Shown here piece by piece: positions 16,608 through 20,045 of a stretch of DNA of 64,000 nt. Numbering within the stretch: position 1 is the stretch's first letter; each line of letters starts with the position of its first letter. Both the position numbers and the translations under genes were made by a program. The DNA comes from Gammaproteobacteria bacterium. Its GTDB lineage: Bacteria; Pseudomonadota; Gammaproteobacteria; GCA-001735895. The notes beneath the pieces are model-generated. The model had not been told where the DNA came from. It searched no databases and saw nothing but the letters and a program-made list of their open reading frames with translations. The DNA lies in contig JABHSO010000025.1 of NCBI GenBank assembly GCA_018669845.1, positions 18,314 to 82,313 of the forward strand, read 5' to 3'.

Positions 16608-17099
16608 CTACTTTATTTGTTCATCTATATATCTGGCGGCATCTTCTAATTCACTTTGATTGAATACCCGGATACCATTTTGTTGTAACAGGGCGGCTGT
16701 TACACCTGCACCTTCACGTAATTGATTGTTAAATGATCCATCATAGATCAGTTTATTTCCACAGGAAGGACTGCGTTTTGATAATATTGCTATAGTTATA
16801 TTATGCTTTTCACACAGTGAAAGAGCCTGTTGAGCGCCACTGAGAAATTCATCAGTTACATTATTTCCCGCTTTATCGACTACTGTTGCTGAACCCGCCA
16901 GAACATTATTTCCATCACCCCCAATAATCTCGGCAGCTATTCTTGGTACTGGAAGCCCGCCTGAAACTTCCGGGCAAAATGACATGACTCTATTGTTTTC
17001 GATCCAGCTGTTTAGCAATTTATTTTCTATGTGCTTATTTTTACCATCGTATCTTACGAGTTCTCCCAACAGGCAGGAGCTGACTAATATTTTTTGCAT
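16608..17099 (-). CDS. DUF523 family protein
   Basis: ILVSSCLLGELVRYDGK ... SFCPEVSGGLPVPR ... ILSKRSPSCG. Confidence 0.93.
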   Translation of the reverse strand: MQKILVSSCLLGELVRYDGKNKHIENKLLNSWIENNRVMSFCPEVSGGLPVPRIAAEIIGGDGNNVLAGSATVVDKAGNNVTDEFLSGAQQALSLCEKHNITIAILSKRSPSCGNKLIYDGSFNNQLREGAGVTAALLQQNGIRVFNQSELEDAARYIDEQIK

Positions 17100-17392: not shown

Positions 17393-19009
17393 ATGATTTC
17401 TAACATTTTACAGGATGCCAGTTTGGAAGAATCTACCGAAATTACTAAAAAAGCTAAAAAGAAAAAAAAGGCTGCATACAGTAAAGCTGTTGAAACCATG
17501 TATCGTAATTCTTACAGGGCACAGCTTGACCTAATCTCCCTGGCAGCCACTAAAGCCAATATCATGATTTCGTTAAATGGCTTCATTGTGTCAATTTTAA
17601 TGGTGTCAGGTTCTTTTATTTTTGTGAATGACCCTGGCTTCCTGGTTCCTGCAGTTATATTTTTACTGACATCCGCATCGTCCATTTATTTTGCTTTATC
17701 TTCTGCTTCTCCTGAGGCACCGGTAAAACGTAGAAGCCTGCTGAAGTGCCTGGTGGCCTATTTCACCGGCAAAGTAAGCCTGAAAGAGTTTAATGATTAT
17801 AGAGAAGCACCTAAAGATGTATTTGATCGTCAAAATTCTAATATCTTAATTTTTGAAGATTATGCCAAGGTATCTAAAAAGGTTTATCTGGAATGCATGG
17901 ATGAACTCATTAATGATCCTGATAAACTCTATGCCAAGATGAGCGACCAGCTTTATTATTTGGGTAAAGTAGCCGATAAAAAATATACTACTCTCAGGTA
18001 TTCTTACTCAATTTTTCGCTGGGGTTTGATTCTATCAATAATTGTTTTTTTAGTTATAAAGTCATTACACCTTCTTTTTCCTCATACCAGTGTGGCTTCC
18101 AGCGACATCATTGTTAATTCAGGAATCAAAACATTTGATAAAATTTATGAACCTTCTGGAGTCCAAAGCCTGTTAGATGGTCGTCTGGTTGTTATCGAAG
18201 ATGAAGCTTCGCAAGCCTTGCATGTTTTAGATATAAAACAGGATGGAAGTTTTAAAGAAAATAAGCGCCTGACTCAAAAATTAATGAAATCATTCAACAC
18301 TAAGTTAAATGATCTTGAAGGTGTAACCCTGGGGCCGGATGGTTATATCTATGCTATTACCTCTCACCAGAGAAATTTGAGTGGAGAAAGATCCTCTGAT
18401 CGAGAACAGTTAATTCGATTTAAAATTGAAGGGAATAGGATTATAGATGTGGGTAGTTATGGAAAACTGACCGATGATATTGAGCAGTCTGGCATTTTGG
18501 GCGAGGTTGATGAACAGGGTAATGGTGGAATAGTAAATATCAATATTGAATCATTGTGCTTTGACCGGGAAGGTAACTTATTGATCGGATTTAGAGCTCC
18601 TTTGAATTCTGAAAAAACTATAGTTGGTGTTTTAGAAAACCCAACGGATATCTTTGAATATAAAGCTAAACCAATAATTTCACCACAACCGTTACTGCTG
18701 GATTTATTTGGTGGGGGTATTCGTGCGATGTCTTATGATCGAATTTTAAGAGGGTACCTGATCAGTAATGAGATATACGGAATTAATAATAATAAAAAGA
18801 AAGTTTCTCAGATTTTATTCTGGGATGGTGAAAAAACACACCGTACGCATCGAATGGCTCAACCGGGGCTAAAAAATATAGAAGGCATAACTTCAGTGAG
18901 GTATGGCGACAATACCCGGATACTGTTGAGCAGTGATGATGGTAAAAAAGCTAAGGAGAAAACAGCCAGTTATTTGTTTCTGAAATATATTGAATTATCT
19001 GACAAATAA
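17393..19009 (+). CDS. Fusion: N-terminal Pycsar-effector-like TM domain (PycTM/DUF5706-like) plus C-terminal DUF3616/esterase-like beta-propeller
   Basis: N-term KAVETMYRNSYRAQLDLISLAATKANIMISLNGFIVSIL...KKYTTLRYSYSIFRWGLILSIIVFLV resembles PycTM proteins. C-term PSGVQSLLDGRLVVIEDEASQALHVLDI...NDLEGVTLGPDGYIYAITSHQRN resembles DUF3616. Confidence 0.75.
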   Translation: MISNILQDASLEESTEITKKAKKKKKAAYSKAVETMYRNSYRAQLDLISLAATKANIMISLNGFIVSILMVSGSFIFVNDPGFLVPAVIFLLTSASSIYFALSSASPEAPVKRRSLLKCLVAYFTGKVSLKEFNDYREAPKDVFDRQNSNILIFEDYAKVSKKVYLECMDELINDPDKLYAKMSDQLYYLGKVADKKYTTLRYSYSIFRWGLILSIIVFLVIKSLHLLFPHTSVASSDIIVNSGIKTFDKIYEPSGVQSLLDGRLVVIEDEASQALHVLDIKQDGSFKENKRLTQKLMKSFNTKLNDLEGVTLGPDGYIYAITSHQRNLSGERSSDREQLIRFKIEGNRIIDVGSYGKLTDDIEQSGILGEVDEQGNGGIVNINIESLCFDREGNLLIGFRAPLNSEKTIVGVLENPTDIFEYKAKPIISPQPLLLDLFGGGIRAMSYDRILRGYLISNEIYGINNNKKKVSQILFWDGEKTHRTHRMAQPGLKNIEGITSVRYGDNTRILLSSDDGKKAKEKTASYLFLKYIELSDK

Positions 19010-19013
19010 TAAG

Positions 19014-20045
19014 TTATTTAGCCGGACGATATTCAAATTTAGCTCTAACTACACCATGATCTGATGAGCCATGCTTTTTATGGTCTTTTAAATGAAGGTG
19101 ATCATTATGCAGATCCATGCCTTTAAATGCCCATAATCTGAATTTTGAATTATCATAAAATTCCTGAGAAACCAGGATTTGATCTAGAGACTCATGTGTA
19201 TTTTTAAAAACATGAGTGTAGTAAATGTCTCTTAAACTACGATATTCCTGCAGTGTCTCTACGGTATATAAAGATGTATCACTACCTCCCTTAGAGTAGC
19301 CACTCAACAGGTAATTGGGTTGTTCGGTCAATATATTCAATGTGTTGCTATGTTGTGAGTCATTACAATCACCTAAAACCACGACCGGGTTTGAATTGTT
19401 TTTCATTTCATCGGTAAGCATCATGCGTAGTGCGGAAGCTTCGGCGGTTCTTCTGATAGTTGAAATTGCAGAACCTATGGATATTCGATGTTTTGAATAA
19501 TATTCATTGTTATCTTTGTACCATTTCTCCCTGTGAATATGGGTAGGACCTTTCGATTTAAAGTGCACCACATAAACTGAAATCACCTTTCCATTTTTAC
19601 GCGGACGAATTTTAAAGTGCAAAACAGGGCGTGAAAATTTATTGATTGAAACTGAGATGTTAGATGATTGGGCATCATCACCCCCACTAATCAACCTAAA
19701 ATCAGGTGGAAATTTATTAATCCATTCGGGTTGACCGACTAATAAATTATTTCGTACAGCTCCAGCACATACAATTTTGCCACTATGATTTTCAGGCACT
19801 AGTAACTGGTATTTAGAATCCAGGCCGGCTGAGATAAATACATCCTGTAGTGCCTGATGATGCCAGAGCTCCTGGAATCCCCAGACATCTGATTTTAGCT
19901 CTGTTAGTACTGAAGCGGTCCAGTCTACTTTTTTATCATAATCTGCCTGATTCCAGCCATCGGTATCTCTATAGATGGGCAAACCGGGTTTGTTGATGTT
20001 ATAGAGATTACAGGTTGCAAAGCTAATTTTAGTTCGAGCTGCCAT
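19014..20045 (-). CDS. Endonuclease/exonuclease/phosphatase family protein
   Basis: ISFATCNLYNIN, DVWGFQELWH, VVVLGDCNDS, and C-terminal SSDHGVVRAKF. Confidence 0.9.
   Translation of the reverse strand: MAARTKISFATCNLYNINKPGLPIYRDTDGWNQADYDKKVDWTASVLTELKSDVWGFQELWHHQALQDVFISAGLDSKYQLLVPENHSGKIVCAGAVRNNLLVGQPEWINKFPPDFRLISGGDDAQSSNISVSINKFSRPVLHFKIRPRKNGKVISVYVVHFKSKGPTHIHREKWYKDNNEYYSKHRISIGSAISTIRRTAEASALRMMLTDEMKNNSNPVVVLGDCNDSQHSNTLNILTEQPNYLLSGYSKGGSDTSLYTVETLQEYRSLRDIYYTHVFKNTHESLDQILVSQEFYDNSKFRLWAFKGMDLHNDHLHLKDHKKHGSSDHGVVRAKFEYRPAK

Follow-up and report, generated by a model that had tools for sequence, protein, structure and literature searches.

A PycTM membrane module fused to a predicted periplasmic propeller, and its links with propellers beyond the Pycsar operon

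Both the name and the annotation of PycTM proteins mark them as anti-phage effectors, and within Pycsar a cyclic nucleotide drives the PycTM module from the cytosolic side. The locus described here raises the question of what such a module does when it shares one polypeptide with a propeller. Within a 64,000-nucleotide stretch of gammaproteobacterial DNA (the window), the original prediction had recognized a gene fusing a PycTM-type membrane domain to a DUF3616/esterase-like propeller of periplasmic type, and had suggested a different use of the PycTM fold. The gene occupies 17393..19009 on the forward strand, to which all protein features below also belong; it begins with ATG and forms one intact open reading frame of 538 amino acids with no internal stop.

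One gene, two modules

The N-terminal part of the protein is a PycTM domain. PF18967 matches residues 82-211 (17636..18025) over profile positions 8-107 of 107, with an E value of 1.3e-15 and 58.1 bits against a gathering cut-off of 27.2, and the PADLOC PycTM model PDLC02364 matches residues 39-221 (E 4.2e-15), while PADLOC models of CBASS 2TM effectors (PDLC00700 and others) show weaker similarity (E 2.6e-9). The HMM similarity whose absence would have counted against this assignment is thus present.

Could the two modules instead be separate genes joined by an error of sequencing or assembly? We give this explanation virtually no chance, because independent single-ORF fusions recur and because purifying selection acts on the PycTM part, the linker, and the propeller alike. 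Such fusions occur at ten loci in independent genomes that span seven genera, six families, and two classes. The relatives of the window's gene include two from its own genus with synteny kept (L013 and L014, the latter without the endonuclease/phosphatase neighbor), one from its family (L004, 47% identity), others from further families of its class (L063 to L067), and one from another class (L106); they range to about 30% identity, all in one frame. Between the window and L013, dN is well below dS throughout, with dN/dS of about 0.10 for the PycTM part, 0.21 for the linker, and 0.06 for the propeller. The fusion is nonetheless rare: it was found in 6 of 369 sampled genomes of the class, the source genome included, with one further genome carrying adjacent genes, and in 1 of 385 genomes of the class of G563, where it was likely acquired by transfer. 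In two genomes, G011 and G005, pieces of the fusion lie at contig ends, so that gene structure can be judged only in part; the near-identical PycTM starts and ends at the contig ends of G005 (L017, L018, L019, and L035) suggest copies that were collapsed in assembly.

The C-terminal part, residues 248-538 (18134..19006), models as a five-bladed propeller of the Phytase-like/DUF3616/SdiA-regulated kind. An AlphaFold2 model of the propeller, built from an 18-sequence alignment, has a mean pLDDT of 92 and a pTM of 0.91, and its strands group into five blades; confidence is lower for the model of the whole protein (pLDDT 77, pTM 0.55). The closest Pfam families are Phytase-like (PF13449), which matches 14 of 18 relatives at E<=1 and the window protein at 24.1-27.1 bits, just below the gathering cut-off of 27.6, and the originally predicted DUF3616 (PF12275), which matches 12 of the 18 relatives (best E 3.3e-13) and gives no match to the window protein itself. 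Members of these two families that stand alone without PycTM were also found (for example L107-L110 and L126), and we know of no activity for this propeller subgroup. The SdiA-regulated family (PF06977), which includes YjiK and CarP and is not fused to PycTM, gives the window propeller 14 bits, under its gathering cut-off of 21; even so, SdiA-regulated and fused propellers align by hhalign (E 2.3e-5, probability 76) in register over three blades, with the blade motifs S-G, D-E, D-x-E, and E-G in common.

Ten residues are invariant in the 18 sequences: S255, D270, D307, E309, H325, E386, R401, R444, E497, and D515. According to the secondary structure of the model, S255, E309, E386, R444, and E497 mark the beginning of the first strand in blades 1 to 5, and D270, H325, R401, and D515 lie in or just past the second strand of four blades. 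Propellers commonly have their ligand or active site at such positions. A fold search with the propeller returned generic propellers alone, with a best TM-score of 0.50, among them the Ca2+-dependent hydrolases paraoxonase and calcium-activated nucleotidase, and a sequence search of the PDB gave no significant match (YjiK, 3qqz, at E 0.38). With PDB matches this generic (TM-score <=0.50), we abandoned the assignment of an enzyme class by fold.

The protein is predicted to have its N-terminus inside, three transmembrane helices, and the propeller outside the inner membrane. Residues 1-30 (17393..17482) form a variable lysine-rich tail, presumably cytoplasmic, with pLDDT below 50 for residues 1-22. 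Three hydrophobic peaks then occur in the same places in all ten fusions. TM1 (residues 59-77; 17567..17623) and TM2 (residues 84-102; 17642..17698) are also helices in the model, and TM3 (residues 211-229; 18023..18079; hydropathy peak 2.41), at the end of a long model helix, is predicted to cross to the periplasm. Segments rich in lysine and arginine precede TM1 in all ten fusions and usually also follow TM2, with no such excess after TM3, which by the positive-inside rule places the propeller outside. This placement agrees with a split homologue, L068, in which the end of the PycTM gene overlaps with a propeller gene that has a hydrophobic export signal of its own at the N-terminus. This topology supports the periplasmic character first proposed for the propeller, as do the export signals that several of the unfused partner propellers carry. 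A cytoplasmic location is possible for some relatives, since the closely related unfused propellers of L107, L108, and L069 are without a clear signal peptide.

A context outside Pycsar operons

No cyclase adjoins the fusion gene in the window neighborhood, as the original prediction had noted. The genome-wide search that it proposed gave a more qualified answer, as four class III cyclases are encoded on other contigs of the source genome; these are ordinary FHA-, ATPase-, and CHASE2-type proteins by domain names read by eye from the sequences. A search of the genome for SMODS (PF18144) gave no match while the positive controls were detected, so the genome has no CD-NTase by this measure, and its PycTM count is one. 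The survey was able to see cyclase-PycTM operons, as a search with the PADLOC model PDLC02365 recovered cyclase-adjacent PycTMs at L139, L140, L141, L143, and L144. The only fusion with a cyclase nearby is that of L067, where it follows another gene: at L067:9034-11119 the fusion gene is convergent with genes for a cNMP-binding protein and a CHASE2 class III cyclase. PADLOC PycC models match this cyclase and also another CHASE2 cyclase, and the neighborhood is not enough to call Pycsar. On another branch, a solo-clade PycTM lies directly beside a class III cyclase (L104:1480-3454) in a possible Pycsar operon.

The PycTM part itself also stands apart. In 39- and 59-member PycTM trees, the fused proteins and L068 form one clade (support 97/94 and 96/92) separate from the PycTMs of cyclase operons, in trees whose deep branches are weak and whose cyclase-operon members sit on long branches. 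Where other PycTMs have the NxLxFFG motif, the window protein reads SNILIFEDYA (residues 149-158; 17837..17866), with FED in place of FFG and aspartate replacing the glycine. In our alignment, from which this signature was drawn with no published criterion, the glycine is absent from 11 of 11 members of the fused clade (ten fusions and the split L068) and present in 45 of 48 other PycTMs. The separation of the fused clade from cyclase-operon effectors and the absence of the FFG glycine favor the idea that the PycTM fold is used differently here; together with the lack of a cyclase operon, they let the suggestion stand as a matter of context, by which the fusion is not a Pycsar effector.

We also considered a mobile or phage-borne defense gene. 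Searches of phage and viral contigs gave no match to the fusion, and plasmids gave three partial matches, none near-complete, and on these results we rejected this candidate. Within the genus the fusion keeps a syntenic chromosomal position, and its neighbors are not conserved between families. To the left in the window lies a gene of the 2-thiouracil desulfurase family (DUF523; PF04463 match; 16608..17099, reverse strand), kept in L013 and L014, which we regard as genomic context; a gene of the same family adjoins an unrelated solo PycTM of the same bacterial family (L037:3630-4115). To the right, a convergent gene of the endonuclease/exonuclease/phosphatase family (PF03372, E 4.4e-8; 19014..20045, reverse strand) is present in L013 and was rejected as an obligatory partner because it has no match at the L014 locus.

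Propellers beside unfused PycTM proteins

The link between PycTM and propellers recurs without fusion, as overlapping genes, as neighbors, and in Bacteroidota as HD-PycTM genes beside those of SdiA-regulated propellers; this recurrence is new here. A literature search found no paper linking PycTM with a propeller or an HD domain, and an eLife survey of conflict systems describes, in the part of it covered here, other propeller systems with no link to PycTM. At L111 and L112 a PycTM lies within 0.6-0.9 kb of a signal-bearing propeller, and the PycTM of L111 is flanked on its other side, at a distance of 189 bp, by an SdiA-regulated propeller. The HD-PycTM proteins of Bacteroidota resemble the fusion in their PycTM, in a lysine-rich stretch ahead of TM1, and in having a propeller gene near in half of their loci, whereas they differ in an N-terminal cytoplasmic HD phosphohydrolase, in the separate SdiA-regulated propeller gene, and in keeping FFG.

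In 9 of the 18 Bacteroidota loci the SdiA-regulated propeller lies within 4 kb of the HD-PycTM, in five gene orders (L173/L174/L182; L175/L186; L012/L180; L190; L011). Overall, a propeller is nearby at 12 of 22 HD and split loci versus none of 26 other (solo and operon) PycTMs, with a Fisher p of 9e-6 that serves as a guide only because the loci are related rather than independent and because L011, L012, and L111 served as seeds for the profiles. The differing gene orders are a stronger argument for the link than the p value. A metallophosphoesterase protein is encoded in 12 of the 18 Bacteroidota loci and PPK1 in 5; for the metallophosphoesterase proteins of L011 and L186, the Omp85 part was confirmed. 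Across L011, L012, L173-L175, L180, L182, L186, and L190, the cluster comprises HD-PycTM, SdiA-regulated propeller, metallophosphoesterase-Omp85, and sometimes PPK1, in shuffled order. Elsewhere, a phosphodiesterase gene is a neighbor at L063 and L065 and a metallophosphoesterase gene at L070 and L109, and a phosphate-selective porin follows the propeller gene at L019 in genome G005.

What the fusion may do

Our tentative reading, to which we assign a little less than an even chance, is that the fusion is a three-helix inner-membrane sensor-effector whose PycTM bundle is under the control of the periplasmic propeller. The cytoplasm would contain the lysine-rich N-terminus and the TM2-TM3 segment, with TM3 leading to the propeller outside. 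There, a ligand present in the periplasm may bind to the double ring of conserved polar residues; a metal (Ca2+, for example), a phosphoester, or both are the likeliest candidates. The state of the ligand would pass via TM3 to the PycTM bundle, altering its assembly or membrane activity. A phosphoester is suggested by the recurrent phosphoester-related neighbor genes, and Ca2+ by CarP of Pseudomonas aeruginosa, an SdiA-regulated propeller that affects Ca2+ homeostasis (PMC10574481) and that PMC12802237 lists as a propeller of the inner membrane. The two domain assignments, the intact fusion in seven genera, purifying selection, the N-in, C-out topology, the homology of fused and SdiA-regulated propellers, the unfused pairs at L068, L111, and L112, and the Bacteroidota association all argue for such a sensor-effector. 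However, the nearest solved propellers are generic, the neighbors of the fused gene vary between families, and the propellers of L107, L108, and L069 have no obvious signal peptide; furthermore, the linked Bacteroidota PycTMs, with their FFG and HD domain, may work differently, and the deep branches uniting them with the fused clade are weakly supported.

Alternatively, the protein may be a membrane-tethered periplasmic hydrolase of phosphoesterase or lactonase type, with PycTM as a mere anchor or oligomerization device. Invariant acidic, histidine, and arginine residues once per blade, the Phytase-like/DUF3616 similarity, fold matches that include paraoxonase and calcium-activated nucleotidase, and phosphoesterase and porin neighbors would all suit an enzyme. 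We nevertheless consider it rather unlikely, as an anchor needs no complete PycTM whose cytoplasmic segment is conserved and held by purifying selection (dN/dS about 0.10 between the window and L013), and in the split homologue a full PycTM is kept next to a propeller that is encoded separately and bears its own signal. Less likely still is an orphan anti-phage effector of Pycsar or CBASS-like type that is switched on by the cyclic nucleotide of an unlinked cyclase, the propeller serving as an envelope or phage sensor or as a brake. The PycTM half is indeed homologous to effectors of real cyclase operons, with which it shares the three-helix membrane domain (hhalign probability 95, E 2e-8), and both the four cyclases elsewhere in the genome and the cyclase and cNMP-binding protein beside the L067 fusion could be enlisted for this explanation. 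Yet those four cyclases are of ordinary types, and the absence of an adjacent cyclase and of a SMODS gene, the separate clade with its missing glycine, and the syntenic position with no phage, viral, or near-complete plasmid match all tell against it. Most doubtful of these functional alternatives is a device for Ca2+ or ion homeostasis in which the propeller gates the PycTM bundle, itself a regulated leak or channel, much as in CarP-linked Ca2+ control. The description of the Pycsar PycTM as a pore former that disrupts the membrane (PMC11224242) would fit, as would the effect of CarP on Ca2+ homeostasis, but CarP is a distant family relative and the fusion has neither a transporter nor a two-component partner as a conserved neighbor.

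Because the pairing of PycTM with a propeller is genuine and recurs across distant bacteria outside the Pycsar operon, it suggests that the PycTM module also senses or handles something in the cell envelope. More broadly, and somewhat more doubtfully than the sensor-effector reading, the fusion of Pseudomonadota and the Bacteroidota cluster may represent a system for envelope signaling or for phosphoester or ion handling that is unrelated to phage defense. If so, Pycsar effectors would be one specialized use of an older membrane transducer. If members of the family act in the envelope, the anti-phage annotation of PycTM misleads for many genomes. A sensor-effector fusion would also offer one protein with which to study the switching of a PycTM bundle, and would place the DUF3616, Phytase-like, and SdiA-regulated propellers, whose function is unknown, in a membrane signaling context that can be tested with one gene.

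Other genes also turn up beside PycTM genes. One family at L063:7110-8411, L065:4036-5298, and L070:9357-10451 looks CotH-like by eye but matches nothing in Pfam or the PDB; a true CotH gene is a neighbor at L004 (PF08757, E 2.2e-9). At L116, L117, and L119, within one family of the phylum, solo PycTMs lie near a gene of the class I/II aminotransferase fold that by eye resembles serine palmitoyltransferase.
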